From positions 1-58,679 of the forward strand of contig QCUJ01000007.1 of assembly GCA_003210795.1 (NCBI GenBank): a stretch of 58,679 nt of DNA, read 5' to 3'. A program made the translations under genes and the position numbers. Origin of the DNA: Synechococcus sp. AG-679-B05. GTDB taxonomy: Bacteria; Cyanobacteriota; Cyanobacteriia; PCC-6307; Cyanobiaceae. Shown piece by piece: positions 2,075 through 57,851 of this stretch. The number at the start of each line of letters is the position of its first letter. Position 1 is the first letter of the stretch. The notes beneath the pieces were generated by a model. That model saw only the letters and a program-made list of their open reading frames with translations, ran no database searches and was not told where the DNA came from.

Positions 2075-2851
2075 TCAGAACTCAGCGAGCTCCTGCCACT
2101 GTTTAGGTAGGATTTTTGCCACAAGATTGAATTTGCCGTCCCTAAGGGGTTTCGCAACGTAGGCAACGCCCATGGGTGCTGGGTAAATTCCATTGGAAGG
2201 AACGATCGGCATCGTCACACCCTGGAAGGGATCGTCATGCCCCACGAGGAAGGTGTTTTTTCCATCCTCTGGTTGCGCAGACATCAGGGGAGAAAGACGT
2301 TCAGCATATGTCTCGTAATCCTCAGGCGTGCACTCCACACAGGGAAGGAAATTCAAATTAGAGTCCTTTTGGAAAGTACCGAATGCTAACTCGGCAGTGT
2401 TATAGGCACGACAATATTCGCTGGAAATGACATTTCCCACAGGAATTCCGGCAGCCTTAATGCCCTCACCGATCTCTTTGGCGTCAACCTTACCTTCATC
2501 GCTTAATTGACGCTGCGTGTTGCAATCTTCAAGATCCAGTTCAGGACTGATCTGATCACCCCAATCCTTATTTGTTTTCGCATGTCGGATATAAATGACA
2601 TGCCCCCCCTCTCTTAGAGCAGCGACAAGATCTTCATTATCGAGCTTATTGACAAAATCATTATTATTTTGTTCTCCGGAAAGAGTGGTTTCATTCTGCT
2701 CATAGTCTTCGACGTCACTGTTGCTCGCAACAGGTTGCTCCTGACCAGCCGATTCAGATGATTGATCCTTGGATGCATCATTACTGCTTGATCCAGAGGA
2801 ACATGCAGCCATCAGCAGGAGTGCTGCAAAACACGTTGCTTTCTTGAGCAT
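2075..2851 (-). CDS. Lipoprotein histidine-phosphatase-family protein
   Basis: A 258-residue protein with a lipoprotein signal peptide (lipobox LMAAC, Cys at about 17) and a Ser/Asp/Glu-rich linker to about residue 70, so it is probably anchored in a membrane facing the periplasm. The mature part is a histidine phosphatase (phosphoglycerate-mutase-like) domain. It has the catalytic RH pair at R89-H90 (IRHAKT) and the second catalytic histidine at about H205 (VGHDDP). The RHAKT form is typical of the SixA/small-phosphatase side of the family rather than RHG mutases. Substrate is unknown. It is transcribed alone, with a strong terminator after it. The initiator is an ATG preceded by a purine-rich GGAG-type site. 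Confidence 0.8.
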   Translation of the reverse strand: MLKKATCFAALLLMAACSSGSSSNDASKDQSSESAGQEQPVASNSDVEDYEQNETTLSGEQNNNDFVNKLDNEDLVAALREGGHVIYIRHAKTNKDWGDQISPELDLEDCNTQRQLSDEGKVDAKEIGEGIKAAGIPVGNVISSEYCRAYNTAELAFGTFQKDSNLNFLPCVECTPEDYETYAERLSPLMSAQPEDGKNTFLVGHDDPFQGVTMPIVPSNGIYPAPMGVAYVAKPLRDGKFNLVAKILPKQWQELAEF

Positions 2852-3093
2852 AAAAAAAATGAATCTCCTTTATTAAAGCGATTTTGAGGTGCAACAACAT
2901 TTTGTAAGTCACGCAAACACGTAACTGTTGATACAGCTCGGCGAGCAAGGTAAAACCGACAATCCCCAATGAATGTAGGCATTTGGGATAAGCAATATTG
3001 ACTCAAGAGTGAACAACCCATATAGGGCGAGAAAAATAAAATCATCGACACTCTTCAATATTGACCTGGCTTTCAAACAAATAAAGCTGGGTA

Positions 3094-3501
3094 TTAGATC
3101 TTGGATTTACTTTGCCTGTATTGGACTGCCTTTTCAAGATGCTCAACTCTTTTCTCCAGATCCTTGCAAACAACCTGACCCTCAAGTGCATCGATCCTGT
3201 GGATCAGGATTTCAAAAGCGCTAACGAATTCTCTGTTATCCGTTTCAACCCTCTCCAATCGTTCCAGCATCTCGGCATAGGTTCCCCTGGTTGTAATGCT
3301 GCTTGAGGCTGCAACCGTCTCAGTGAGCGATGAAACAGACGTTTGATCAAGCACAATGCCTTGAGAGTCCAGGTAAAGACCCATGAGCTCCTCAAGCACC
3401 TGGTTGCATGGCTTCCCATGCTTTTGGCAAAGTGCCTTGAATGCTTCGAGAATGTCAGCATCAAAGTCGGAACTGAATGCACCTGGTGCTGTGGGGGACA
3501 T
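3094..3501 (-). CDS. Hypothetical protein with C-terminal coiled coil
   Basis: A 135-residue protein I do not recognise. The N-terminal 50 residues (ADILEAFKALCQKHGKP and following) look like a helical, ribbon-helix-helix-like or oligomerisation segment. Residues 80-130 show heptad-like Leu/Val spacing with many charged residues (MLERLERVE, DLEKRVEHLEKAV), indicating a coiled coil. No signal peptide or membrane span is seen. It stands alone, about 240 bases upstream (in its own direction) of the phosphatase gene. Protein-like composition supports it being real. Confidence 0.6.
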   Translation of the reverse strand: MSPTAPGAFSSDFDADILEAFKALCQKHGKPCNQVLEELMGLYLDSQGIVLDQTSVSSLTETVAASSSITTRGTYAEMLERLERVETDNREFVSAFEILIHRIDALEGQVVCKDLEKRVEHLEKAVQYRQSKSKI

Positions 3502-4023
3502 TCCATTGGTCTGCCACTGAAGTTAACAATACCTCTGCGGTGTCTGCCAGACACGAATCGTTTAACCCTGGTTCAATGGGCCACATCCATGAGCCAATTT
3601 TTTAACATCGGCAGACCGCATCGATTCAAACTGCAAACCAAATATTCTCTTCAGAGGTAATCTGGAGAGAACCCAGATCGAGATTTCCAACCAATAACAA
3701 AGTGATTCCGTTTTTTATTGAGACTTGAAACTGCCTTGTGCAAATTCAATCAAATCAACTTGTGCCGTACTCTTCCATAGATCAATCAAAATCAAGTGGC
3801 TCATGATTTTCCAATCACAACCAGTCATCGATGAATCATAAGCAAGGAGGATGGACGAGACCTCCAGAAAACTCCACAACATGAACGGGATAAAAAATCA
3901 AGATTTTGAGAATATCCGAGTCATATCTCCTCAAAGAATAGCTGATACTATTAAATTAAACAATCAGACACACCCTGCAAGAAGCATGACTGTATTTACA
4001 GTCAAATTAATCGTACTCTTGGA
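3502..4023. other. Gene-poor intergenic stretch
   Basis: AT-rich. The only candidate is a 58-codon rightward frame at 3851-4027 with AAGGAGG placed immediately before its ATG. The zero spacing and unremarkable composition argue against it. No tRNA or hairpin terminator was seen. Confidence 0.4.
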
Positions 4024-4619
4024 GTGAATCGAATCAAACTAATGAGATGGCAACCTCAATATCTTGTCATTCTGATAGGTTGTAGCCAGGCCTTTGCACA
4101 ACCGACGATCGATCCCTGCTTTAAAGCTGCAGACTACAAAGGGTGCAGGGACTATCACGATAAAAGGTCTCCAGGACAAGTTGTCGTCGATAAGCCGAAT
4201 GATCATGAATACAGGCCAGAATCCATTCAAAAGCAAAAGGTAAGGGGGCGTTATGGTCGATATTTAACGTTTACTGGCATAACCCTTAATGCATATAAAG
4301 GGACTCCTGCTCAATGGAACCCAGGGCAATCTGGAACCAAGCAATGCAATACGGTGTACGGATATAACAACAAAAGCAAAACCACTACCTGTAAGCAAGT
4401 CGGCTATGTAGCACCGAGTTACACCCCAGCAACGCCAGGAGGCGTAGAACGGAGAAGTTTTCGTTACCCATGACCTTTGATCGCAAGGGAGATTTCAGTG
4501 GTTTTGGCAATAAAGGATGGTTAAATGTCGATGATGATCCAACTGCAAAAGCTGTAGCGGATCGCTATTGCCCGATCATAGAAACATTAAACAAGCAAGA
4601 GACGGAAGACGAAAGTTAG
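4024..4619 (+). pseudogene. Secreted hypothetical protein gene, broken by a frameshift
   Basis: The first frame (GTG at 4024, or ATG at 4042) encodes 149 residues: a signal peptide with a cleavage site near AFA-QP, paired cysteines and a Tyr/Gly-rich body. It stops at 4471-4473 right after SFRY. The other frame opens at an overlapping ATG (4470) and runs 49 codons to a TAG at 4617-4619. It begins MTFDRKGDFSGFGNKGW and contains DPTAKAVADRYCP, which looks like the C-terminal part of the same secreted family; from memory these proteins continue from the RY region through a short Asp-Cys segment into TFDRKGD. I infer a small deletion near 4468 that removed that segment and shifted the frame. An alternative is two overlapping genes. 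Confidence 0.6.
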
Positions 4620-5281
4620 TAGATCATAGAAGCAATTGGGAGGCAATCAATCCAGCCATGAAGCGAAAGGCACAATCAATGAATTCCCGATAGATATCAA
4701 TTTATCATCAAGTCAAAAGTCATCCGTTCATAGCAAATGCCCTTACTGGATTCTCAGAAACTCTGAATTCAATCCTCATTTTCACAAAGAGTCGGTAAAA
4801 AAACTCTAAATACACGTATATTGGCGAACGCAAAGTCGAATCGTGCGACACATCAGCTACAAATCAATCCGCAGACAACCTGATCAATTCATGGGAAATT
4901 TCTGCCTGTTTTGGACAGGCATACTTGAGTAAAACGAACAAATTACCTGCCATTCTAATATTACACTAAGGCCAGGACTTAGATCATTGATGCAGAATCA
5001 GCAGTATTAGCTTTATTAAATCTCACGCAGAGTTACGAATGCACGATTCAAGCATCATTTCAATGTCGATGCCCTTCCCCTTGGGCTCCACCTAGATCAA
5101 TGTTGCAGGAGACACTGTTCTATAGGGCACTTTGCAGACCTTGATGGGGCTTGAAGACACTCGAAGGATGTACCTGACGGCAGCTCTGTGTTTTTAGGTG
5201 GTGCAGACTGTTGGTTTTGACAATTCAATGTGTTTATTCGACGGATGCCCAGAAGTATGATTACATAAGATTAGAAAAATA
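4620..5281. other. Gene-poor intergenic stretch
   Basis: About 660 bases with no convincing gene on either strand. A TTGACA at 5217-5222 resembles a -35 box for the following gene, but no well-spaced -10 box follows it. Confidence 0.4.
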
Positions 5282-5578
5282 ATGACATCAATGCCCGCCC
5301 CAAAAAATAGAGAAGTGCGTCGTGGAGTTTCTCATCAACCCCCCAAGCGCGTTACACCTGAATCATCAATCAATATTGTAAGCGTAGCTACTGAGTTAGA
5401 ACCCTGGGCACCTTCAGATGAATCGGCCAGGCAGGATGTCAATTCTGCAATGGAAGATATTCGAACGATACTTCAAAAACTCCAGCAAAAGATTGGGGCT
5501 AGCGATCAATACATTTACGGATTACTCGACTGCATATCCGATGACTATCGTGCACAATTGCCAAGTGGCAAAGCCTGA
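5282..5578 (+). CDS. Small hypothetical protein (GASDQ/DDYR domain)
   Basis: A 98-residue soluble protein of unknown function. The first 45 residues are basic and Pro/Ser-rich, probably disordered. Residues 55-95 form an amphipathic segment ending in KIGASDQYIYGLLDCISDDY. That stretch resembles the C-terminal half of the 62-residue protein at 19515-19703 (ETGADDRFVHMILGGLMNDY), with the same spacing from a preceding LQ-rich helix to a shared DYR. I infer a small paralogous domain family. It is followed 33 bases later by another small gene on the same strand. Confidence 0.6.
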   Translation: MTSMPAPKNREVRRGVSHQPPKRVTPESSINIVSVATELEPWAPSDESARQDVNSAMEDIRTILQKLQQKIGASDQYIYGLLDCISDDYRAQLPSGKA

Positions 5579-17991: not shown

Positions 17992-18181
17992 TACCTAGTG
18001 GAGATCTGACCAGACGGATTGGATCATGCACTGAAAAAAATCTTAGATAGACCTATCAACTTTCAAACAACAGGAATAGCGATCTATTTCACAATAAAAA
18101 GCTTGGTCAACACAAACATTCAAAGCAGTGACTGCGCAATGGAGACAGTAGCGGTAAAATAAGCAATCAGACTCGAATCCA

Positions 18182-18400
18182 ATGCTCAGCAAATCCCCCG
18201 CGCTCCGGAGAATCGGAATTTATACCATATTAAGCTACATTGCACTAGTATTGGTCAATAATAGTGGCTACAAGCTTGAAAATATGTGGCTCATTTATGC
18301 CCCAATGTTTGTTACTGTCTATGTCTTCTCAAGATGGGTTGACAGCAAGCTTCCTGCTGATTCAACAAAAAATCAAAAGACACAAAACAAAGAAAACTGA
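18182..18400 (+). CDS. Small two-span membrane protein, 72 aa
   Basis: An ATG-initiated frame with two hydrophobic segments (YTILSYIALVLVN and LIYAPMFVTVYVFS) and a hydrophilic Lys/Asn-rich tail. No family is recognised. It is isolated, 190 bases downstream of the COG0523 gene, in a more AT-rich stretch. Confidence 0.5.
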   Translation: MLSKSPALRRIGIYTILSYIALVLVNNSGYKLENMWLIYAPMFVTVYVFSRWVDSKLPADSTKNQKTQNKEN

Positions 18401-19095
18401 TCAAGAAGGCAGCTAACGGAGCACAAAAACGAATTTCTCTCCAATCTTGCCTTGCTCTTAGCGATATTATTACCCCATCTACATTTTTCAGAGAGAAGCA
18501 AAATAAGCAAGAAAAATCACCATCAAACAAGGGCTCTGTGCAACAAGAAAGGAAGACTTCAAGAACAGCAAAACTCGCTTGGCTGCCATAGAATTAATTC
18601 TGCAATATTCCTTCCTTGAAACGGCTCCTAATCGTCCATAATCTTAAAACAGGGCAAGACATTATTCATGAATTCTGCGATATGGACTTTGCCTTTGAGC
18701 TGGTAAAAGGCAGCCCTGAGCCTGATATCAATGGAGACCTCGACGTGGAATCCAGATTATTTTATCGACTTGACTGACCATGATGGCATGCAATCGATAC
18801 GATCGGACTGAAAACAAACACCTTGCTATTCAGGCCTTGGTCACCACTGATTTAATCTATCTTGTAGCAACTGAATAACTTTTGCATGACGCACAAGAGA
18901 TCTAGAAGAACCCTCCCTTGCACGCCCTGGAGCAATTGAGGACACAATAAATGTCATTACGCACAAATACCCTATCCTTGAAGCAATGATTTTTGCGAAG
19001 ACAATAACTGGAGGCGCAAACGATCAGGCCTACGATTAAAAGTCCACGACTCCAGATGCTTATACTACAAGTTAATTACAGATTCAACAATCAGG
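18401..19095. other. Gene-poor AT-rich stretch with one candidate small frame
   Basis: Apart from the candidate at 18616-18777 described separately, I see no protein-like frame, tRNA or clear terminator on either strand. Confidence 0.4.
18616..18777 (+). CDS. Candidate small protein, 53 aa (TTG start)
   Basis: A frame from TTG at 18616 to TGA at 18777 encodes a sequence with clearly protein-like composition: LKRLLIVHNLKTGQDIIHEF, followed by acidic blocks such as KGSPEPDINGDLDVE and LFYRLD. There is no ATG or GTG start and no good ribosome site, so it may be a remnant of a longer gene. Function unknown. Confidence 0.35.
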   Translation: MKRLLIVHNLKTGQDIIHEFCDMDFAFELVKGSPEPDINGDLDVESRLFYRLD

Positions 19096-19305
19096 ATGAA
19101 AGGTCTTGTCCCAATTTGCCTGTTAAGCATTGCCTTGATCTCCTGCGGTCAAACTGATAACAGAACTAATTATGCTCGCCTCCTGACGATCCGGAAAAAC
19201 TCAAACTCTGACCAGAAAATCAAAGCCAGTGAATTACGAATGGAGCTTTCAAAACGCATAAAACTGTCGCCAAAGCAAGTTGATTTTTTTGTATTCATTT
19301 TCTAG
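19096..19305 (+). CDS. Putative small lipoprotein, 69 aa
   Basis: The N-terminus MKGLVPICLLSIALISCGQ is a lipoprotein signal with lipobox ALISC (Cys at about 17). A short Lys-rich soluble part follows. It ends on an aromatic tail (FFVFIF), which is odd and may mean the C-terminus is truncated. Isolated gene, no recognised family. Confidence 0.5.
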   Translation: MKGLVPICLLSIALISCGQTDNRTNYARLLTIRKNSNSDQKIKASELRMELSKRIKLSPKQVDFFVFIF

Positions 19306-19514
19306 GTAAGACACCTATAGTACGCCGATTACCTCCAAAGAAAACAACTAAATCCCCGCAAACATAAATTCCCGTAATCAGCGAATAACTAATCAACCAT
19401 GAATTGAAGCCTACAAATCAATATTACATTAAAACCGTAAAATTGAATAACAAAATTCTAGAAATCAATATCTAATAGAAATCAGCGACAGCTTTACGCC
19501 TGAAAAAGGTGGCT

Positions 19515-19703
19515 CTACCGAAAAGATTTAGAGATTGGCTCCTCCTCGAATCGATAATCATTCATAAGACCACCTAGAATCATATGCACAAAACGATCAT
19601 CAGCACCAGTCTCTTTTTGAAAATCTTGCAATAACTTAGAAACTGAATCAACTAATTCAGGAATCTCATTCTTCAACTGAGCTTTGCTTGGGTGATAAAC
19701 CAA
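19515..19703 (-). CDS. Small hypothetical protein related to the gene at 5282
   Basis: A 62-residue soluble helical protein. Residues 20-55 (SKLLQDFQKETGADDRFVHM, then LGGLMNDYRFEEE) align without gaps to the C-terminal part of the 98-residue protein at 5282-5578 (LQKLQQKIGASDQYIYGLLD, then DDYR). No N-terminal extension is present here. Function unknown; the similarity supports that both are real genes. Confidence 0.55.
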   Translation of the reverse strand: MVYHPSKAQLKNEIPELVDSVSKLLQDFQKETGADDRFVHMILGGLMNDYRFEEEPISKSFR

Positions 19704-19898
19704 AACTGTTCCTCGTTGAATTCAACCTATTCCATTAGGGACGTTGATGTGGCTTCGTCTTGGTGTCAGCACACTGTTCTGTAGAAAATTGGCATAGGGC
19801 TTTGAATCCAAATATTGATTCCGAAAACCCTGCAGCTATTCGGGTCGCGGATTCATTCTTACTAAAAGGGTCGTCAATCCAGATATCCGACCAAGGAA

Positions 19899-19985
19899 TC
19901 AAGCTTGTTGTTTGAACGAGCTAGGACCAAATGGGTTGCTTTGAAGATTGATGCTTGGTGGTGTTGTGACCGGGTCTCCAGCCAT
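19899..19985 (-). CDS. Candidate 28-aa microprotein after the EamA gene
   Basis: An ATG at 19985 opens 28 codons (MAGDPVTTPPSINLQSNPFG and a Ser/Lys/Gln tail). A strong AGGAGG lies at ideal spacing upstream, 17 bases after the EamA stop on the same strand. The peptide is Pro/Ser/Asn-rich with no membrane span. Only the ribosome site and operon-like position support it; it could equally be chance. Confidence 0.3.
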   Translation of the reverse strand: MAGDPVTTPPSINLQSNPFGPSSFKQQA

Positions 19986-20001
19986 GAAGTCCTCCTGGAC
20001 A

Positions 20002-34135: not shown

Positions 34136-34579
34136 TCAACTCACAGGGAGACCCAACGGATACAGCAACCAGTGCTGAACATCGTCACCTTGCCCACCGA
34201 CAGGCCTGGCCAGAGTCCAACCATCACCACGTTGGCCACGCTGCAAATACAACTCAAAAGCACTATCCACCCGAATGGAATCCTGCGGAAGCTGCCAATC
34301 AAAACTGCCCTCGAGATGAACAAAACGCTCACTTTCAACCTGTACATCGTCATGGTGAGTCACCCGAACGCGACTGACCTTTGGAATATTGGTCATTGGG
34401 TCTAGACCCAGACTCTCTGAAATAGATGCCTGAGTAGCGATAATCTGCGCCTGGAGAGCTTCAATGACAATATTTCTTGGAGGCTGAGAAGTCCATGAAC
34501 AAGAAATTAATAGAAGGGAAATTAAAAAGAGACTGACAACACTTCGACCAATAGAAATTATGGAAATGTTTGCAGACAT
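34136..34579 (-). CDS. Putative lipoprotein at the end of the transport operon
   Basis: A 147-residue protein with a lipoprotein signal (lipobox LLISC, Cys at about 27) and a beta-rich soluble part (VSRVRVTHHDDVQVESERF, then SFDWQLPQDSIRV). Its ATG overlaps the stop of the symporter gene (TGATG), so it is translated with it. A helper for the symporter or binding protein is plausible; the family is not recognised. Confidence 0.65.
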   Translation of the reverse strand: MSANISIISIGRSVVSLFLISLLLISCSWTSQPPRNIVIEALQAQIIATQASISESLGLDPMTNIPKVSRVRVTHHDDVQVESERFVHLEGSFDWQLPQDSIRVDSAFELYLQRGQRGDGWTLARPVGGQGDDVQHWLLYPLGLPVS

Positions 34580-35967
34580 CAGCCCACTTCAAAAACTGAA
34601 TCATCAGAGCTCTGGGCAAGCAAACCTAGATTTGTATCCGAGGGATTGGAATCACTCGCAGGCGAAGATCTGACTGAAGAAATCACAGAAATCGACATTG
34701 CCAGAACACCGGTTGTCGCTGCACGAGGCAATGTAAGGATTGGATCAATCGCCAGGAGAAGGACAAGAACAGGAGGGGCGGGAACCTGAAAGTAGAGTAA
34801 AGCAACTGCAATGGTTGGGACAGTTGCAACACCTGTTAATCCAGCAGCCGAAATACCGGTAACGATACCGAGCGCTGCAACTTCCGCCAGCCTAAATGGC
34901 GTAAGTGCAACATCATAAAGATTTAGAGCAAAAATAATTGCTATCACGTTGTAAGTAACATTGCCAAGCCGAGCAATTAACAAACTCAATGAAGCTGAAG
35001 CTTCCACCTCAGATTCATCTCGACCCATCGATTTCAGAGTTTGGAACATCAAAGGGTATGCCGTCATACTACTGCCTGTAGACAAACTGAGCAGGAAAAT
35101 AGAATCAACAGGATTCACATTCAGGCCGGCTCTCTCTCTGGACGAAGTGAAACGGCGAAAGACAAGTCTTGAGACTCCAAGGGAAGCAACAGCCGTCAAG
35201 AAAACGCAAATAGTGAAATTAAGCAGCGCAACCACGATCTCAGCATTAATCGTTGAAACTGCTCCTGCAATAAGACAAATAAGGACAAGCGGAGCAAGAT
35301 TAAGAACGATATAGAGCAACTGAACGGAAATAGTGTTAACGCTACGCAGCAAAGTGATTAGCGGCTGCGTAAGATCTCGCTTCAAACGAGAGATCGCAAG
35401 ACCTGCAAGGATCGATCCGCTGATAACTTTTAAAGTTTGCCCAGAAGAGGCATCAGCAAAAATATTACTTGGAATGATGTTTGCAATCCAAAGGCTATTA
35501 ACCGTTGATTCAACAATGGGTATTTCTCCAACACGAATATCGGTTACGTCTAACATAAAACGGCCAATCGATAACTTTGCATCAGGAGAAAGAACTCCGG
35601 GAGCTTGGTACAGTGAAAGCAAGAGCGCAAGTACCGAGCCAAACAAAAGAGCGATAGACAAAGACACCACAAATCGACTCGAAAAGCGAAAACGATCCTC
35701 TCGACTACGCTCAGATACGCTAAAGATATTGGCAATTGATATCATTACAGCAGTCAGCACCAAGGGTATTGCTGGAAATGCGATGATCTGAACCATCGCC
35801 ACTCCTGCATCATTAAAAGTAGCAGCAGTCGAGGGAGGAATAAGCCTCCCCAAGATAATCGAGAAAGGAAGGATGTAAAAGAAGAAATTGCGCGGTTTTC
35901 GAAGTAACGGAAGAATGGCAAATATCCGTTGATAAATGCTTTTTTCAGACGGAGTTGTGGCTGTCAT
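34579..35967 (-). CDS. Divergent DAACS/SDF-family cation symporter
   Basis: A 462-residue protein of the dicarboxylate/amino acid:cation symporter family (PF00375). The family block ANIIPSNIFADASSGQTLKV and the helical-hairpin 1 region LSLSTGSSMTAYPLMF are present. The usual TM7 NMDGT signature reads RLGNVTYNVIA, and the substrate-binding end of TM8 reads DPILTLPRAATTG instead of the D..RT..N pattern, so the substrate is likely unusual. The first bases overlap the stop of the binding-protein gene (ATGA), implying a functional pair. Na+ coupling fits the neighbouring Mrp antiporter. Confidence 0.85.
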   Translation of the reverse strand: MTATTPSEKSIYQRIFAILPLLRKPRNFFFYILPFSIILGRLIPPSTAATFNDAGVAMVQIIAFPAIPLVLTAVMISIANIFSVSERSREDRFRFSSRFVVSLSIALLFGSVLALLLSLYQAPGVLSPDAKLSIGRFMLDVTDIRVGEIPIVESTVNSLWIANIIPSNIFADASSGQTLKVISGSILAGLAISRLKRDLTQPLITLLRSVNTISVQLLYIVLNLAPLVLICLIAGAVSTINAEIVVALLNFTICVFLTAVASLGVSRLVFRRFTSSRERAGLNVNPVDSIFLLSLSTGSSMTAYPLMFQTLKSMGRDESEVEASASLSLLIARLGNVTYNVIAIIFALNLYDVALTPFRLAEVAALGIVTGISAAGLTGVATVPTIAVALLYFQVPAPPVLVLLLAIDPILTLPRAATTGVLAMSISVISSVRSSPASDSNPSDTNLGLLAQSSDDSVFEVG

Positions 35968-36845
35968 GAGTCGGAAGGAAGATAAAAGGCTTGGAAATCA
36001 TCAAGAATATTCTTATCGGATTTAATTCCACCCCATTCACGTTTTAGATAATTATCTAGAAAATCAGAAAACCCAACCTTACCTTTTTCAGACAAATATA
36101 TACTTTTCCGATCAATTATGTCGTCAAAAAGTATTGGCACAAATTTCAAGGACAAAACAGGTTTCTCATAAACAATCGGTTTTATTTCAGTCGCATCACG
36201 ATAAATGGCATCAATTTTTGGACCATCAGACTTGGCGTCGTGATTTGTAAGAGCTTTTTTTGCTGCAGACCAGTTCTTAAAACCAACAAACTCAGCATTC
36301 GGAAAATTTGCCCTGCTTTCAGTTTCCCAGGTAGAGTTTTCAATCGACCCAACCCTCATCTTGGCATTTCTTAGAACATCGCCAAATTTTGGATCATCTG
36401 GATCAGTACCTAGGGATGAAATAAAACTACGGTCAGCCAAAAGTGCATGCCGAAAACTTAAATATTGAATAGGGAAAGCATCAAATAGACGTTTATATGT
36501 AAGGCCCAATTTGCCAATCGCAATATCGAAATCATCAGCACCAACTCGCTGAACTAATTCGTTAAAGCTTGTGGATGAACGATCGAACTGAACGTCAACG
36601 CCCAGCTTTTCAGCCAATCCGGTTGCCAAGTCAACATCGTAACCCTGTAAATCATCAGAGCCAGGATCCAGATAATAAGCAGGTGGAGTGTTATAAGGAG
36701 GTAAGCCTACTTTTAAAAAGCCACGCTGTTGAATTTCATCAATAAAACTGTTTTCAGCGGCACAGACCTGCAATGGAAACAAAAGGAATACAGCACAAAG
36801 AGCTGTTAACAAAAAACGCAGAAGAAGCCGAAACATATGTGGCAA
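35964..36845 (-). CDS. Periplasmic solute-binding protein (family 3-like)
   Basis: A 293-residue protein with a signal peptide ending near CAA-EN (about residue 30). The mature part follows extracellular solute-binding family 3: LKVGLPPYNTPPAYYLDPGS, GYDVDLATGLAEKLGVDVQF and DFDIAIGKLGLTYKR. Such proteins usually serve ABC importers of polar amino acids. Here there is no ABC subunit; instead the gene overlaps an SDF-type symporter by four bases. A promoter-like pair lies just upstream. Confidence 0.85.
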   Translation of the reverse strand: MPHMFRLLLRFLLTALCAVFLLFPLQVCAAENSFIDEIQQRGFLKVGLPPYNTPPAYYLDPGSDDLQGYDVDLATGLAEKLGVDVQFDRSSTSFNELVQRVGADDFDIAIGKLGLTYKRLFDAFPIQYLSFRHALLADRSFISSLGTDPDDPKFGDVLRNAKMRVGSIENSTWETESRANFPNAEFVGFKNWSAAKKALTNHDAKSDGPKIDAIYRDATEIKPIVYEKPVLSLKFVPILFDDIIDRKSIYLSEKGKVGFSDFLDNYLKREWGGIKSDKNILDDFQAFYLPSDS

Positions 36846-36876
36846 CGAGGTGCTAGAGAGCCTAGGATCATTTTAA

Positions 36877-36905
36877 ATTCTAGGTCGCGATTTAACCTTT
36901 GGCAA
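36877..36905 (-). promoter_or_regulatory. Sigma-70-like promoter before the binding-protein gene
   Basis: Read leftward: TTGCCA (36905-36900), a 17-base spacer, then TAGAAT (36882-36877), about 30 bases before the ATG of the solute-binding-protein gene. This lies in the 85-base gap after the ComA-like gene and suggests an internal start for the binding-protein/symporter/lipoprotein genes. Confidence 0.5.
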
Positions 36906-36930
36906 TCAATGATTTCTAATAAAATAAAAG

Positions 36931-37677
36931 CTAAAATTTTGGTTGCATGTCCAGCAAGGTATCTGATCTCAAGCCGCAACGAAGTGATTGAACAGCAACT
37001 AAGTCTGACAAACTAAGATTACCCAAATTAACAAAGGATCCAAAGCGTTTTAATAAGAAAGTCTGTACAGATTTAATGGGAGCCTCAAACAGTAAACTGT
37101 CAACAGGAATAACAGATGTGATCGTGTCCATGACAACAGCATCAACATCTCCTCCTGTTGAAACATAGCCGGAACGGCCTGATTCACGTGACTCTAAAAT
37201 GATCAGAGAAGCTCCTGCCTCTGCAGAGAGCTCACAATGGGAGAGCCAGTGTGTAGGTGTTAATTTTTTAGCTGGATCAGATGATTTACGACCAACCTCA
37301 CTCATAACAAAATAGTCGGAAGATAAAGTTCGAATGAATGAAGAGTAAAGATGATCTTCAATATCAATCGTACCGCGACTTAATTCAACACAATCAAGAC
37401 CAAAGGAGAGAAGATGTCTGGCGAAATCATCGAAATTATAATGATGAATCATATACTCAAAAAAAGTACCTCCTAGCAGTGGGCGAATATTGAGCCGATC
37501 GCATAGATTCTTTTTGAGAGTGAACTCTGGATCAATTAATGCACTTCCCCAGCCAAACTTAATAAAATCAATATACTGATTATAGGAATTCAAATAAGAT
37601 TCAAAGACAGGATATGGCATGCCAACTTCAAGAACATGATTTATAGAGTGAAGCTTATTGAGATGATTGCTTGGCAT
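36931..37677 (-). CDS. comA: ComA-like phosphosulfolactate synthase
   Basis: From the ATG at 37677 the protein has 248 residues and follows the ComA family, which joins sulfite to phosphoenolpyruvate to give (R)-2-phospho-3-sulfolactate. Motifs in order: IDFIKFGWG (about 37-45), LLGGTFFE (67-74), VELSRGTIDI (87-96), SEVGRKS (126-132), ESRESGRSG (152-160), FEAPIKS (197-203), NLGNL and LRCGLRSDT near the end. Upstream in-frame starts at 37704 and 37734 overlap the channel gene. No other sulfolactate gene is visible here; in other bacteria the product feeds coenzyme M or sulfolactate. The gene continues the Mrp-channel series. Confidence 0.8.
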   Translation of the reverse strand: MPSNHLNKLHSINHVLEVGMPYPVFESYLNSYNQYIDFIKFGWGSALIDPEFTLKKNLCDRLNIRPLLGGTFFEYMIHHYNFDDFARHLLSFGLDCVELSRGTIDIEDHLYSSFIRTLSSDYFVMSEVGRKSSDPAKKLTPTHWLSHCELSAEAGASLIILESRESGRSGYVSTGGDVDAVVMDTITSVIPVDSLLFEAPIKSVQTFLLKRFGSFVNLGNLSLSDLVAVQSLRCGLRSDTLLDMQPKF

Positions 37678-37684
37678 ATTATCT

Positions 37685-38440
37685 TTATGAATCGGAGGCC
37701 CCATCGAGCTCGTTATACTTTGTGTTTGATTCAATGATATTAGCTGTTAGCAATGCAACACATATTATGCCAATAATTCCAAATGAAATTGCAAGAACTT
37801 TACCCAAAGAAGTTGTTGGAGTAATATCTCCGTAACCGATTGTTGTCATTGTGACAATGGAGAACCAAAAAGACCTAACAATTGATCCAAAATGTTCTGA
37901 ATCATTATTCCTTTCAATAATATAGATTGAAAAAGCCATTAGATAGGTTACGATTGAAAGCAGTACCAAGGGAAAGAATGTATAAGCTGGAGAATCCGTT
38001 AAAATAAAATAGATACGCTTAAGTACGACCTGAAAACCAGAAAAATAGGTTGCCAGGAGCGATTTAAAGATATAGATACCGATCGCGATAAAAGAATCAT
38101 TTGGAAAGTATTCTGTCACCAACACAAATACAATCAAAAGATCTATCAAGCCATATTTAGAAAAAAACCCCTTAGCAAAACCTAACCATGAATAATCATA
38201 CCGTGACCATGTATTGGCTAGCTTCCCAACATAATCAGCTATAAAAAATATTTCTATGAAATTAAGAGCAGCATCAAGGAATATTTGCCCTTTATCAGTA
38301 TGAAATACAGGCTCAGTACTCAATGCAATTTGAGCAAGAAGCAAGACAATGACACTATTGAGAATTAGTGAATAATTATTCCCAGGAAGGCTTCCAGAAT
38401 AATCTCCAAAGTACCAAGGATCTGAATTTTTATATGACAT
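37685..38440 (-). CDS. Potassium-channel-like membrane protein
   Basis: A 251-residue protein with a six-span voltage-gated-channel layout. The selectivity filter TMTTIGYGD is at residues 197-205, followed by a last long hydrophobic helix (ISFGIIGIICVALLTANIIE). The fourth span (about residues 116-140) has only scattered Lys/Arg, so voltage sensing is doubtful. No cytoplasmic RCK domain is present. It starts three bases after mrpB and lies just upstream of the ComA-like gene, tying a K+ conductance to the antiporter. Confidence 0.85.
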   Translation of the reverse strand: MSYKNSDPWYFGDYSGSLPGNNYSLILNSVIVLLLAQIALSTEPVFHTDKGQIFLDAALNFIEIFFIADYVGKLANTWSRYDYSWLGFAKGFFSKYGLIDLLIVFVLVTEYFPNDSFIAIGIYIFKSLLATYFSGFQVVLKRIYFILTDSPAYTFFPLVLLSIVTYLMAFSIYIIERNNDSEHFGSIVRSFWFSIVTMTTIGYGDITPTTSLGKVLAISFGIIGIICVALLTANIIESNTKYNELDGASDS

Positions 38441-38443
38441 TAA

Positions 38444-39160
38444 TCAAAGAACACCACGCTTAATAACAAACAATCGAAGTATTGACCAAGATCCTATGGT
38501 GACTTTCAAAGCAGCAATGATATTCAAGGCTGGTATATATATAATAGGTGGTAAAGACGCGAAAATTGAGGAAGGGTATAGAAAAGAGCAGAACGTCGCC
38601 AAAGCAACAATAATAAAACATGCAACAGCAAATTTTTCAAATGCTGGAGCATTTGCCTTGAAATAAAAATTCTCTACTTTCTGTAATCGTCCAGTCACCA
38701 TTAGCAAAGTAATCGAGGTTGCCCCAGCAACACCAGAAGCAAATCCTCCACCTGGCGTCAAGTGACCTTTTAATGCGAGATCAAATGCAAGAAAACAGCT
38801 TAACAAGGCTGCAAAATCTAAAAGAAGACAGACTACTGGATCATTTACACCCACAAATTGCTCCTCCGAGTCTTCCTCATGAAGCAATATTTTTACTCCC
38901 AACCCTGCAATAGTAAACACAGTAACCTCACCAATTGTATCAAAAAGTCTGGTAACTAAAATAACGGAAGTAACCGCATTAGGAATATTTGTATAAGAAG
39001 TTAGGTACGAAACAATTGATTCAGTATCTCTTGCGAGGGAATCATCTCGTGTAAACAATATCATCAGCATCACTGATGTAATTGCAACTAAGTAAAGAAG
39101 AGACTTAAAGAAATCAGCGCTTAAGTCTAATCGAGGAAGTCGCCTAATAATTGAATTCAT
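38444..39160 (-). CDS. mrpB: Mrp antiporter subunit B (MnhB-like)
   Basis: A 238-residue membrane protein. The MrpB signatures AVTSVILVTRLFDTIGEVTV and GHLTPGGGFASGVAGATSI lie in the first and middle parts. It carries an extra N-terminal helix relative to short MrpB proteins. MrpB is part of the multisubunit Na+/H+ antiporter complex. The first bases overlap the end of the DUF4040 gene by four. Confidence 0.88.
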   Translation of the reverse strand: MNSIIRRLPRLDLSADFFKSLLYLVAITSVMLMILFTRDDSLARDTESIVSYLTSYTNIPNAVTSVILVTRLFDTIGEVTVFTIAGLGVKILLHEEDSEEQFVGVNDPVVCLLLDFAALLSCFLAFDLALKGHLTPGGGFASGVAGATSITLLMVTGRLQKVENFYFKANAPAFEKFAVACFIIVALATFCSFLYPSSIFASLPPIIYIPALNIIAALKVTIGSWSILRLFVIKRGVL

Positions 39161-39702
39161 GACACAGGAGGAATCTTGGTGAATGTAAGATCGTTGGGCA
39201 GTAAATTAATATCAACAACATCTTGAACATCGATCAAAAGGCTCTCAGCTTCAAAGTACATAGTTTTTTCCATCAAAAGTGCATGTGGAGAGCCCGATGA
39301 TTTTGAAGATGACAAGAACTTAAAATTCTGTTCATCATCTATCGAGAACTCTTCATCTTGGTAAATAACATTTAAATGCAATTCACCAAAAATAGATTTC
39401 AAATAATCTTTATTGCCGGGAGAAAGGGATGCGTTTTTATCAATAATAACAATTACAGAATAACATGAACGAATGGTGACAATGTACAGCAAAGACGAAA
39501 GTAATGTGCCGACCATAACCTCAGTTAGTGCAACATCTGGAGCCCCAACAAGAGCAAAAATCAGTGCTGCAATACTACCCAAGAAGGAACGATAGATTAA
39601 ACTATTAATCGGTGAAGAAGATCGTATTAGAAGAATCCCTAAGACAGGGAGCAAAAGCTCAAAAGGGAAAATGAGCGCCGTGCTGGTAAATGACTCACTC
39701 AT
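39157..39702 (-). CDS. DUF4040 protein, truncated MrpA equivalent
   Basis: A 181-residue protein. Its N-terminal half has four spans with the motif ALVGAPDVALTEVMVG, which in full-length MrpA lies in the C-terminal DUF4040 (MbhD-like) part. The second half is a soluble acidic region (ISDDEQNF-type sequence, IYQDEEFSIDDEQNF) not seen in ordinary DUF4040 domains. The large proton-pumping part of MrpA is absent. The start overlaps the end of mrpG by four bases. Confidence 0.8.
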   Translation of the reverse strand: MSESFTSTALIFPFELLLPVLGILLIRSSSPINSLIYRSFLGSIAALIFALVGAPDVALTEVMVGTLLSSLLYIVTIRSCYSVIVIIDKNASLSPGNKDYLKSIFGELHLNVIYQDEEFSIDDEQNFKFLSSSKSSGSPHALLMEKTMYFEAESLLIDVQDVVDINLLPNDLTFTKIPPVS

Positions 39703-39974
39703 GATGGCCGATCAGAAATGTTGCCAAGGATATAACTGAAAATAGTGTTCCATAAAGACAAGGAAATTGCCGTGACGAGTAGTAAAGGCCAATATTGGGG
39801 TGCTAGAAGCAATAATGCAACCACGATCAATAGAGAACCGACACTATCTGCAACCGTAAGGGTATGCAACTTATAAAAGATAGAATGTTCTTTATTTAGA
39901 ATTGGAAGTGTGCCCCAAATCCAGAAATAAAGGCCTAACGATAGGATTGCGTAAGAAACAAAGGTAATTGTCAT
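39699..39974 (-). CDS. mrpG: Mrp antiporter subunit G (MnhG-like)
   Basis: A 91-residue three-span protein of the MrpG family, with the conserved segment KLHTLTVADSVGSLLIVVALL and SLWNTIFSYILGN. It lies three bases after mrpF and overlaps the DUF4040 gene. Confidence 0.82.
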   Translation of the reverse strand: MTITFVSYAILSLGLYFWIWGTLPILNKEHSIFYKLHTLTVADSVGSLLIVVALLLLAPQYWPLLLVTAISLSLWNTIFSYILGNISDRPS

Positions 39975-39977
39975 GAT

Positions 39978-40256
39978 TCAGATCCTCATCTCAAGTAGGG
40001 AAAGAATAAGCATGCCAGCATCACCAACAATTAAAATAAAAGCACCAATACAACCAATCATCCAATCACCCCTAAATATTCCAAAAGCTATAATCATAAA
40101 TGCTAGTTTATTGCCAAAGCTGGAAGCATATGCAATTCTCTCAGTAGTAGAATTAGTTCTAGAAACTGCAAGTACAGGAACCAAACTAATCAAAAGCATG
40201 ACATAAATAACGACATATTGATAAGAGTCGAGTCGAGCAACTGCCGAATTAATCAT
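39978..40256 (-). CDS. mrpF: Mrp antiporter subunit F (MnhF-like)
   Basis: A 92-residue three-span protein. The MrpF pattern is seen as ERIAYASSFGNKLAFMIIAF followed by a last helix GCIGAFILIVGDAGMLILSL. The first bases overlap the stop of mrpE by four. Confidence 0.8.
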   Translation of the reverse strand: MINSAVARLDSYQYVVIYVMLLISLVPVLAVSRTNSTTERIAYASSFGNKLAFMIIAFGIFRGDWMIGCIGAFILIVGDAGMLILSLLEMRI

Positions 40257-40696
40257 TTGTTGCTCTCCTTGGGTTTGACTTTAGCTTCAACTTCTGAAGC
40301 TGAGGCAACGAGATGAACTCTCCAAGCATCTGAATTTTCACGACGGGTCACTAAAGACATTGGTGTAAATGTTATTCTGAATAGATCGAAAAATTCAGCA
40401 AATTTAGAACCACTTGTAGCTCTAATATTTACTTTTTCTTCTGTGAAGTTATCAATAGGATCATTTATTAACATCAATTCAAAACATTCTTTCATCATAT
40501 CGTATGGAAGACGAAGTATGAGGAGAATTTCAGGAATAAGAGCATGCATCTTCAATCGTCGGAAGTCTCCAAAGGGGATGAGAAAGCAAATAACTAAACC
40601 TATTAACAAATTTGTTGTCTCAATACTGGAAGTGACCAAACACCAGCAGCAGATTCGGAACAGTAGAACAAGAGTAAGCCTGGTAAAATTTGCCAT
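40253..40696 (-). CDS. mrpE: Mrp antiporter subunit E (MnhE-like)
   Basis: A 147-residue protein of the MrpE family (PF01899). Two N-terminal spans include TNLLIGLVICFLIPFG and a soluble C-terminal part with FRITFTPMSLVTRRENSDAW. In Mrp complexes MrpE is needed for full activity. It overlaps the mrpD stop by one base. Confidence 0.82.
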   Translation of the reverse strand: MANFTRLTLVLLFRICCWCLVTSSIETTNLLIGLVICFLIPFGDFRRLKMHALIPEILLILRLPYDMMKECFELMLINDPIDNFTEEKVNIRATSGSKFAEFFDLFRITFTPMSLVTRRENSDAWRVHLVASASEVEAKVKPKESNK

Positions 40697-42234
40697 TAAA
40701 TCTTGAGATAAATTAGGTTGGCAAGTAGTAAGGCTGCAACCAAGAAGGGTGCACCCACTAGATCTAATGTACGAGTGACAGGCTTAACAAACTCGTCAGC
40801 CTGAATCCCAACAACTGAAACAAAGAGAATTCCTCCAAGAATTGCAGAAACGATCGCGGACTGAACTGCAGAGAAGGTAAAGAGGTCTGGTGCTGCATTT
40901 GAAGCAAGGATCAAACCAACGACTGATAAAATTAAAATATAATTTTGTGATGAAGAAAATAGATCTGAAAGATTTTTAGAGGCACGGGGCAAATTTAAGA
41001 CTAAGCGAGCATAAGGTTGACGAATAAAGTCTTTGATCCGATCAAAAATCAAGCGTGCGTAGACAGTTGAGGTGAGTAATGCAGCGGTTGTATAGATAAT
41101 CTTTGCTTCATAAGGAATATCATATTTTATCCAGTTTTTAGTAATGAATCCTGCTAGGAAGGGGAACCCCATGATGGACAAACTGGCAACTACAAATACA
41201 ATTACTCTTAGAAGTTCATTTGTTACTGATAGTTTTGAAGGCGTATTATTTGAGCTAGTAATAGCCGAGGAATCCAAATTTTCATCGGCCTTTCTTGAAT
41301 AGAGAGTCGAAAATAATAATGCTTTGCAAATTCCATGCTGCATCGCATAGCTGCATGCATAAGTTGGAGATAAAATTGCAATTCCAAGCTGAGAAACTGA
41401 GCTCCATCCCAGAGCACGGCCACTGTCACGTTCAAAAACAGCGTAAATGGCAGCAATCACAGCACTGATAACACCAATCACAATCATCGAGTCACTGATG
41501 GGATTCAAGATCTGACTCATTCGTGCGATGGGAGCAATACCTGCACAAGTGACGCAACCTGCCAGTACAGCTGACGATTGAGAATTTGCATGGGAATAGA
41601 TATTGGGGACCCACAGACCACAAAGAAATACCCCTGACTTCGTTAGCAATCCGGCAACAATGAGACAAAGAGCTGTTTCTGGAGCTTTGACTAAATCCTC
41701 CAGTAGAAAACTGCCAGTAAAAGTAAATGCTTGTACCACACCAATCAGATAAATCAACATGGCTAAGCCGCCACCAATCAGATACTGAAAGGAATTGAAT
41801 AGAGACTTTCTATCATTACGGTCAGCTATCAACAAAAACGCTGAAAAACCAAGTAGTTCAAGGGATATGAACATACTCACCAAATCAACGGTTGTAAAAG
41901 ATATGAGCAGTGCGCTAAGCAACACAAGGCAAATCTGGTAATAATAATGCGTGAATTTTTTAAAAAATAGTCCGAAAACTATTAGCAAGGTGATGCAACT
42001 TCCAAAAATAAGCGGAAAACTATAGGAATCAACTGAAAATTGAATGCCACCTTCGCCAACCAAGGTAAATTGATAGGCAATATCTCTGCCAATATAATTC
42101 AAACTACTTGCAGCATATCCCAGCAACATCACGACGCTGAGCGGAAAAGTGATTTTAGGTATCACACAGCCCACAAATCCCAGCAAGGCTGGGAGAAAGA
42201 TTAGAAAGGGGAAGAGTATTTGATAATCAATCAT
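40696..42234 (-). CDS. mrpD: Mrp antiporter subunit D (MnhD/NuoN-like)
   Basis: A 512-residue protein with about 14 spans, related to the proton-pumping NuoL/M/N subunits. The conserved membrane glutamate lies in FISLELLGFSAFLL, and the key lysine in LLTKSGVFLCGLW. From the ATG at 42234 the start overlaps the stop of mrpC (ATGA); a longer frame to 42297 is less likely. This is probably the main ion-translocating subunit, since the large MrpA domain is missing here. Confidence 0.88.
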   Translation of the reverse strand: MIDYQILFPFLIFLPALLGFVGCVIPKITFPLSVVMLLGYAASSLNYIGRDIAYQFTLVGEGGIQFSVDSYSFPLIFGSCITLLIVFGLFFKKFTHYYYQICLVLLSALLISFTTVDLVSMFISLELLGFSAFLLIADRNDRKSLFNSFQYLIGGGLAMLIYLIGVVQAFTFTGSFLLEDLVKAPETALCLIVAGLLTKSGVFLCGLWVPNIYSHANSQSSAVLAGCVTCAGIAPIARMSQILNPISDSMIVIGVISAVIAAIYAVFERDSGRALGWSSVSQLGIAILSPTYACSYAMQHGICKALLFSTLYSRKADENLDSSAITSSNNTPSKLSVTNELLRVIVFVVASLSIMGFPFLAGFITKNWIKYDIPYEAKIIYTTAALLTSTVYARLIFDRIKDFIRQPYARLVLNLPRASKNLSDLFSSSQNYILILSVVGLILASNAAPDLFTFSAVQSAIVSAILGGILFVSVVGIQADEFVKPVTRTLDLVGAPFLVAALLLANLIYLKI

Positions 42235-42593
42235 TTCTCTAGGTCTCGATAACGCAACATGGGAGATCGACGACCCAGGCGAAGAGCAATCGCACAAAGC
42301 AAAGCCTGGGTTGCAAAACCAATCACAATGGCCGTTAAAATGATTGCCTGCGGATATGGATCGGAGTAAGAGCTATATCGACTGGCCGTCACAATTGGCG
42401 TCTGGGAACCAGCCGAAGCAGCGATCAGAACAAAAATACTAATCGTGGCAGTGTCAATAACATCCAGTGATAACAATGAGCGAAGCATTGTTTTCGAATT
42501 CAATAAGCCAAAACACCCAATAACAATCAATACGACCATTGGGATCAGTCTTAGCTTTTCTGGCGTTAAATCCATCAAATAAAGCCAACTCAT
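42231..42593 (-). CDS. mrpC: Mrp antiporter subunit C (MnhC/NuoK-like)
   Basis: A 120-residue, three-span NuoK-like protein, from the ATG at 42593. The MrpC/NuoK features are GCFGLLNSKTMLRSLLSLDV and QAIILTAIVIGFATQALLCA. It is the first gene of the long leftward array and is divergent from ruvA with about 100 bases between. Confidence 0.82.
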   Translation of the reverse strand: MSWLYLMDLTPEKLRLIPMVVLIVIGCFGLLNSKTMLRSLLSLDVIDTATISIFVLIAASAGSQTPIVTASRYSSYSDPYPQAIILTAIVIGFATQALLCAIALRLGRRSPMLRYRDLEK

Positions 42594-57777: not shown

Positions 57778-57851
57778 CGGGGCGTGGCGCAGCTTGGTAG
57801 CGCACTACTTTGGGGTAGTAGGGGTCGTGGGTTCAAATCCCGCCGCTCCGA
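57778..57851 (+). tRNA. tRNA-Pro (anticodon TGG)
   Basis: A 74-base cloverleaf. Acceptor CGGGGCG pairs with CGCTCCG, the D-arm contains AGCTTGGTAGCGC, the anticodon stem ACTAC/GTAGT holds loop TTTGGGG with anticodon TGG, and the T-arm contains GGTTCAAATCC. CCA is not encoded. A terminator follows 53 bases later. Confidence 0.96.

Follow-up and report, generated by a model that had tools for sequence, protein, structure and literature searches.

The window analyzed here is the whole of contig QCUJ01000007.1 (58,679 nt) from Synechococcus sp. AG-679-B05. Between its ruvA and dnaG sides, at 34579-42593 on the minus strand, lies a block of eleven genes encoding MrpC-D-E-F-G-A'-B, a K+ channel, a ComA-family enzyme, a periplasmic solute-binding protein (SBP) and an SDF-family carrier (Table 1). 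Neighboring genes overlap or almost abut, and MrpC and MrpD share an ATGA. The likely starts, chosen by eye and from orthologues, are the ATG at 37677 for ComA, whose listed open reading frame (ORF) reaches 37734 from a TTG, and the ATG at 36836 for the SBP. The original prediction for this DNA described a twelve-gene array whose widest gap, of 85 bases, preceded the SBP gene. The genes, their order, common direction and tight packing were all borne out, as was the place of the gap, although it measures about 94 bases from the likely starts. The twelfth gene, encoding a lipoprotein-like product, proved to be native to the site.

Table 1. Genes of the block and the adjoining lipoprotein-like gene, with the evidence for each assignment
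Feature	Position	Strand	Evidence
MrpC-like subunit, 120 amino acids, first gene of the block	42231..42593	-	PF00420 Oxidored_q2, 64.5 bits (cut-off 26.1)
MrpD-like antiporter subunit	40696..42234	-	PF00361 Proton_antipo_M, E 1.1e-28; NCBIfam subunit D models all below cut-off
MrpE-like	40253..40696	-	PF01899, 25.3 bits, slightly under cut-off of 27; no NCBIfam match
MrpF-like	39978..40256	-	No Pfam match; named from position and similarity
MrpG-like	39699..39974	-	PF03334 (PhaG/MnhG) above cut-off
MbhD-like protein, 181 amino acids, corresponding to the C-terminal part of MrpA only (A')	39157..39702	-	PF13244 above cut-off
MrpB with N-terminal MbhE-like part	38444..39160	-	PF04039 (MnhB) above cut-off; PF20501 weak; NF009218, 277.8 bits (cut-off 184)
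K+ channel, TTIGYGD filter	37685..38440	-	PF07885 (Ion_trans_2) and PF00520 above cut-off; filter read from sequence
ComA-family enzyme (phosphosulfolactate synthase type)	36931..37677	-	PF02679, 191 bits (cut-off 25.2)
Periplasmic SBP, family 3	35964..36836	-	PF00497 (SBP_bac_3), 40.7 bits (cut-off 26.4); N-terminus signal-peptide-like by eye
SDF-family carrier without canonical Na+ site residues	34579..35967	-	PF00375, 121 bits (cut-off 27.9)
Native lipoprotein-like gene, outside the block	34136..34579	-	LISC lipobox by eye; present in genomes without the block

A search with the SBP gave matches in 13 of 34 genomes of the genus; a fourteenth copy, in G469, is cut, with the SDF gene at a contig end. 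The Mrp, SBP and SDF genes are present in all 13 block-bearing genomes, the K+ channel in 12 (absent from G468) and ComA in ten (absent from G478, G462 and G468), and MrpC occupies the same place in 13/13 loci. Loci L077 and L078 duplicate L003 and L004 and were counted once; the SBP match in G471 was flagged for one TGA, yet an open 293-amino-acid frame was found there. As the gene order recurs in 13 genomes, it is not due to chance. The grouping that the original prediction had singled out as unusual is thus a conserved one, and mrp genes kept on their own with the remaining genes elsewhere were not seen in these block-bearing genomes. The ratio of nonsynonymous to synonymous divergence (dN/dS) of the eleven genes was 0.03-0.31 in three close pairs (of five pairs computed, two were saturated at many genes), and the block genes are therefore under purifying selection.

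The lipoprotein gene is present in 30 of the 34 genomes and in 19/19 of the good ones. All 13 block-free genomes inspected have a clean empty site with the order dnaE-rpsO-ruvA-lipoprotein-EamA-dnaG; this inspection left out seven incomplete genomes (G460, G461, G463, G464, G472, G473 and G477). Where present, the block lies between ruvA and the lipoprotein gene in nine of 13 genomes (the window, G112, G413, G457, G471, G467, G466, G478 and G465), and the visible part of G469 shows the same placement. The remaining genomes use other sites: the space from rpsO to ruvA in G442 and G458, that from the lipoprotein gene to EamA in G462, and a place outside the dnaE-dnaG interval in G468. Three positions inside this interval and one outside it are thus in use.

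The region is clearly more AT-rich than its flanks, as originally stated: the GC content is 34.4-44.8% in the eleven block genes and 47.1% in the lipoprotein gene versus 53.8-58.9% in ruvA, dnaE, rpsO, EamA and dnaG, and GC at third codon positions (GC3) is 26-42% in the block versus 56-74% in the flanks. Block genes have a GC content of 33-48% across the copies of the 13 genomes. Flanks are available for 12 copies, and in 11 of these the ranges of block and flanks are separate. The exception is G462, where the contrast is slight and the ranges overlap (39-48% and 47-56%); the G468 stretch lacks flanking genes, so the contrast is not measurable there. Elsewhere in the window, most of which has 52-62% GC, further AT-rich stretches occur at 2500-5500 (about 42-45% GC) and 18000-20000 (40%).

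A tree of dnaE and dnaG from 28 genomes and a tree of block proteins from 14 copies, both built with iqtree, agree in their shallow clades and disagree in their deeper order, specifically in the placement of G462 and G468 and the pairing of three main clades. Locus L005 (AG-670-A05), which is cut inside ComA, was used in the trees only. Because the shallow host clades are recovered, AT-richness is no proof of recent acquisition. A recent horizontal gain by this strain, which the original prediction had read from the low GC, is not favored, as the copies are AT-rich in every host. Synonymous divergence between the window and L004 was 0.26-0.91 in the block versus 0.11-0.25 in dnaE, ruvA and the lipoprotein gene, as if one strain had swapped its block with that of a more distant relative; between the window and L003, block divergence was not raised above that of the flanks. 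A better reading of the patchy distribution is that the block is old and has been lost repeatedly, with local exchange in addition. No ComA relative was found in the viral contig collection, and the plasmid relatives of ComA are just 30-35% identical and so identify no donor. A search of phage and plasmid collections with the window SDF returned 17 plasmid and two phage-collection records, all below 60% identity. A tRNA as attachment site was likewise rejected, the sole tRNA in the window being at 57778.

These data also bear on whether the genes form nothing more than a loose genomic island whose members travel together without a shared function. Low GC, patchiness, the four positions and the raised block divergence between the window and L004 would all be expected of such an island. 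It would not be expected to keep one order and nearly the same members in deeply diverged branches of the genus under purifying selection, nor would a related set of an exchanger, SBP and SDF recur in G047, as described below, and we therefore consider this explanation very improbable.

The SBP and the SDF carrier belong together, because both types pick out the same genomes and adjoin one another in Burkholderiales plasmids and viral loci. With an SBP profile, eight of 292 phylum genomes scored at E<=1.1e-56, the next match being at 1.8e-21; with an SDF profile, nine of 339 scored at E<=2.3e-32, followed by a match at 4.8e-25. All eight genomes are among the nine, and the ninth, G442, has the SBP too. 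The 21 ordinary SDF loci with the best scores, with up to 1.5 kb of flank, gave no SBP match. SBP and SDF are adjacent in G311, G385 and G302, with an Asp/Glu racemase gene beside the SDF in the latter two; G371 and G235 have the special SBP and the special SDF as unlinked genes, separated by about 14 kb (L178/L260) and 100 kb (L181/L261), respectively. In G127 a piece of the SDF gene lies at a contig end, where a neighboring SBP is not assessable. Megaplasmids of Cupriavidus and Paraburkholderia (Burkholderiales) carry SBP, SDF and racemase, followed by a second SDF.

Viral contigs from IMG/VR were scanned with the SBP alone, which yielded 73 loci (L182-L254). The SDF gene lies directly behind that of the SBP on the same strand in 66 of these, and the other seven contigs end within 900 bases. 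A racemase is encoded in the fetched stretch, though not necessarily adjacent, in 52 of the 66; 11 stretches end too soon and three are without one. Some of these loci are near-identical or on one contig and are not independent events. The contigs reach 524,565 bases and show the order SBP, SDF, a protein of about 200 amino acids and an Asp/Glu racemase, as at L186 4911-8285, where SBP, SDF and racemase exceed the Pfam cut-offs and all four proteins match PHROG families of unknown function. The surroundings in L216 and L188 include genes with matches to exonuclease and protease families of phages. The scanned parts of these contigs yielded neither a capsid nor a terminase gene, and their viral status is that assigned by IMG/VR. 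We infer from these arrangements that SBP and SDF are partners in transport.

Na+-coupled uptake is classically exemplified by carriers with the SLC1/SDF fold, which, to our knowledge, work without receptors. The block SDF resembles SLC1-type (SDF/DAACS) carriers such as GltPh, GltP and DctA in its Pfam family, its fold and Arg397; it differs from GltPh-type carriers in the absence of the NMD motif, Asp394 and Asp405, and in being accompanied by a binding-protein gene. Residues were numbered by alignment to GltPh, and the SDFs of L003 and L076 were left out of the tally. The 86 readable SBP-type SDFs comprised 11 of 13 from the genus, seven other paired ones, two second Burkholderiales copies, two unlinked and 64 viral. 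Position 312 is Asp in 21/21 ordinary SDFs and in 0/86 of the SBP type. Position 311 is Arg in ten of 11 genus SDFs (Gln in G462), 7/7 other paired and 64/64 readable viral ones. The NMD motif as a whole is replaced by A/S-R/Q-L/I/M in 11/11 genus SDFs, and Asp at position 405 is absent from them in the alignments. According to PMC12668577, the NMD motif takes part in the coordination of Na1, Na2 and Na3. The original prediction took the carrier for a Na+-coupled anion symporter; that identity is doubtful, because the residues that coordinate Na+ in GltPh are replaced. The structural model of the window SDF (predicted local distance difference test, pLDDT, 74.5) had as its top Foldseek match the aspartate transporter 9bh0 (E 1.3e-11, TM score 0.64 by query length, root-mean-square deviation (rmsd) 7.4). 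This structure and 9bgz, which lead the fold matches, are those of the ancestral carrier of PMC12668577, which, according to that paper, binds aspartate without Na+. A search for the term 'binding protein' in its main text returned nothing.

The substrate-binding residues were compared in the same alignment. In PMC12668577, Asp394 is described as holding the amino group of the substrate and Arg397 its side-chain carboxylate. All 11 genus SDFs have Thr or Ser at position 394, Arg at 397 and Ala at 398. Position 394 is Asp in 62/62 readable viral SDFs, and in the seven other paired SDFs it is Asp in five, Asn in one and Met in one. A carrier with Arg397 but without Asp394 points to an amine-free dianion as substrate. 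The SBP model (pLDDT 82.4) matched amino-acid SBPs and cyclohexadienyl dehydratases (best Z 18.5, rmsd 4.0, 242 aligned). Lys112, Arg119, Arg216 and Asp217 are invariant in 14/14 aligned SBPs, and in the alignments Asp217 falls in the column of the amino-binding Asp of amino-acid SBPs. The residue evidence from the two proteins conflicts, and we give slightly more weight to the SDF, because position 394 in the genus differs from the Asp of most other paired carriers.

The conflict bears directly on whether the pair scavenges acidic amino acids, importing aspartate- or glutamate-like compounds or cysteate while the ion genes supply gradients only. Such a role would agree with the amino-acid SBP fold and motif, in which Arg119 and Asp217 are kept, with the racemase neighbors in other lineages, and with the Asp394 of the viral and most other paired carriers. 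The Thr/Ser394 and Ala398 of every genus SDF tallied argue against it, as does the lack of a racemase among the eleven genes, which are flanked in the window by native genes. On balance we regard amino-acid scavenging as rather unlikely in these strains.

Membership of the Mrp genes is supported by Pfam matches above cut-off for B, C, D and G, a match slightly below it for E, and position and similarity for F, with the homologues in a row. Block MrpC and MrpF are 37-47% and 33-37% identical, respectively, to the ORFs in the corresponding positions of other picocyanobacterial Mrp loci. No large MrpA with an ND5-like N-terminal part is encoded in the block, and MrpD is its single Proton_antipo_M protein. 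The cluster at L097 resembles the block in its MrpA make-up, and on this likeness we call the block cluster Mrp-type. It shares its subunit order with picocyanobacterial Mrp (CPA3) clusters and, with those at L094 and L098, the presence of an anion importer nearby, which in these two loci is a SulP (BicA-type; Pfam Sulfate_transp and STAS) gene. It differs in that MrpB of the other clusters of the family is just 35-43% identical to block MrpB, in lacking the ND5-like part of MrpA, and in having SBP and SDF (with channel and ComA) as partners instead of SulP. In 151 family genomes, MrpB relatives occur in 31, the SDF in five, ComA in two, and channel relatives, mostly distant, in 120.

A comparable arrangement is present in G047 (L053 1120-4968), where genes for a Na+/H+ exchanger, SBP and SDF are consecutive and in one direction; no Mrp or ComA match was found within the fetched 6 kb. 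By analogy, this locus and the SulP genes beside Mrp support a logic of anion importer plus antiporter. The SulP neighbors also raise the question of whether SBP and SDF replace BicA in uptake of inorganic carbon. As the SBP has an amino-acid SBP fold, and as we know of no SDF carrier for bicarbonate transport, we give this proposal only a slight chance.

Block ComA shares with the phosphosulfolactate synthases of methanogens and Bacillus the Pfam ComA domain and the conserved blocks KFGWG, GGTxFE, SEVG, RESG and FEAP, kept in 8/8 aligned sequences, and it aligns to PDB 1u83 (E 2e-44). It differs in falling below the NCBIfam cut-off for the archaeal ComA equivalog (173 versus 280 bits) and in its narrow occurrence (4/339 phylum genomes, all of this genus). 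Of 17 genus genomes tested, 16 encode a ComB-type phosphatase (PF04029), whether ComA is present or absent, and this phosphatase may usually act on a substrate other than the product of ComA. On this gene content, production of sulfolactate in most ComA-bearing strains is possible. The absence of ComA from three of 13 copies means that a sulfonate is not the defining feature of the block. The same absence counts against an osmotic unit, in which the ComA sulfonate would serve as K+ counter-ion in high salt, SBP and SDF would recapture leakage, and Mrp and the channel would set Na+ and K+. The single block of ComA, channel and Mrp in 10/13 genomes and the widespread ComB-type phosphatase would suit this scheme. 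As reported in PMC7771541, the euryhaline strain LTW-R is without an mrp cluster and the strictly marine WH7803 has one, which was taken as evidence against a role in salinity. We consider the osmotic unit improbable.

Our best model, to which as a whole we assign a probability of roughly 0.4, is that the block is an ion and organic-anion transport module, kept patchily in one marine Synechococcus genus. The SBP would catch a small organic dianion in the periplasm and pass it to the SDF carrier. Because Arg takes the place of the Met311 of GltPh in this carrier, and Asp is missing from positions 312 and 405, uptake would probably draw its energy from protons, exchange or the membrane potential and not from classical Na+ symport. 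Balancing Na+, H+, K+ and charge would be the task of the Mrp-type antiporter and the K+ channel, and the anion could thereby be used as K+ counter-ion or nutrient. Where present, ComA would probably form phosphosulfolactate from sulfite and phosphoenolpyruvate, from which the ComB-type phosphatase, whose gene lies elsewhere, could liberate sulfolactate. As cargo, an amine-free C3 sulfonate or a C4 dicarboxylate would be most likely. We infer the coupling, cargo and physiological role; the module itself is real, conserved and selected. In joining Mrp to an anion importer it belongs partly to a known kind, and it is unusual in its type of carrier. The joint role in salt or pH homeostasis and C3-sulfonate metabolism put forward originally is possible.

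Several observations weigh against this transport model. Arg at position 311 also occurs in 4/21 ordinary SDFs and hence is not diagnostic alone, and loss of the known Na+ residues is no proof that Na+ coupling is lost. The predicted SBP pocket is positively charged and has the amino-group Asp in place, which suggests a better fit to an amino acid; similarly, the Asp/Glu racemases near relatives of SBP and SDF suggest an acidic amino acid in those lineages. The link to sulfonate is loose, with ComA missing from 3/13 copies, ComB found without ComA, and no ComB match in G000 (77% complete). Finally, G033 has channel, SBP and SDF without Mrp, and its SBP is apparently frameshifted.

Binding-protein-dependent secondary transporters are known from the TRAP (membrane proteins DctQ/DctM) and TTT families, and the block would resemble them in having a periplasmic receptor that feeds a non-ABC carrier. 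It differs in its SDF-fold carrier and family-3 SBP; no TRAP or TTT membrane family was among the Pfam matches of the eleven proteins, and the neighbor of the SBP is the SDF. The pair of carrier and receptor looks like a little-noticed kind of importer, present also in other bacteria and very large viral contigs. We see about an even chance that it represents an additional class of secondary transporter that depends on a binding protein and uses the SLC1/SDF fold, with Na+ coupling replaced by a periplasmic receptor and a fixed Arg at the Na+ site. Members of this class would occur in cyanobacteria, in Burkholderiales and in freshwater viral contigs of very large size, in which an Asp/Glu racemase mostly accompanies the pair. 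The marine Synechococcus version would have been adapted to a dianion without an amine and linked up with Mrp, K+ channel and ComA. Among open-licence PMC papers, none was found that deals with this block or with an SDF carrier dependent on a receptor. The interest of the locus lies mostly in this class and less in the grouping first noted. A natural SDF branch with Arg at the Na+-site motif, and with the matching receptor encoded in all nine genomes of the phylum sample that have this carrier type, would offer a ready test of how coupling is lost and what replaces it. If the model is true, ion balance in marine Synechococcus lineages would be tied to uptake of an organic anion, which might be a C3 sulfonate with a part in bacterial sulfur cycling.

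A scan for transcription signals was also made. Promoter-like sites numbered 19, versus 20.2 in shuffled sequence. Terminator-like sites, none of which was trusted as an operon end, numbered 13 versus 8.1 in shuffles (standard deviation 2.4), somewhat above chance.

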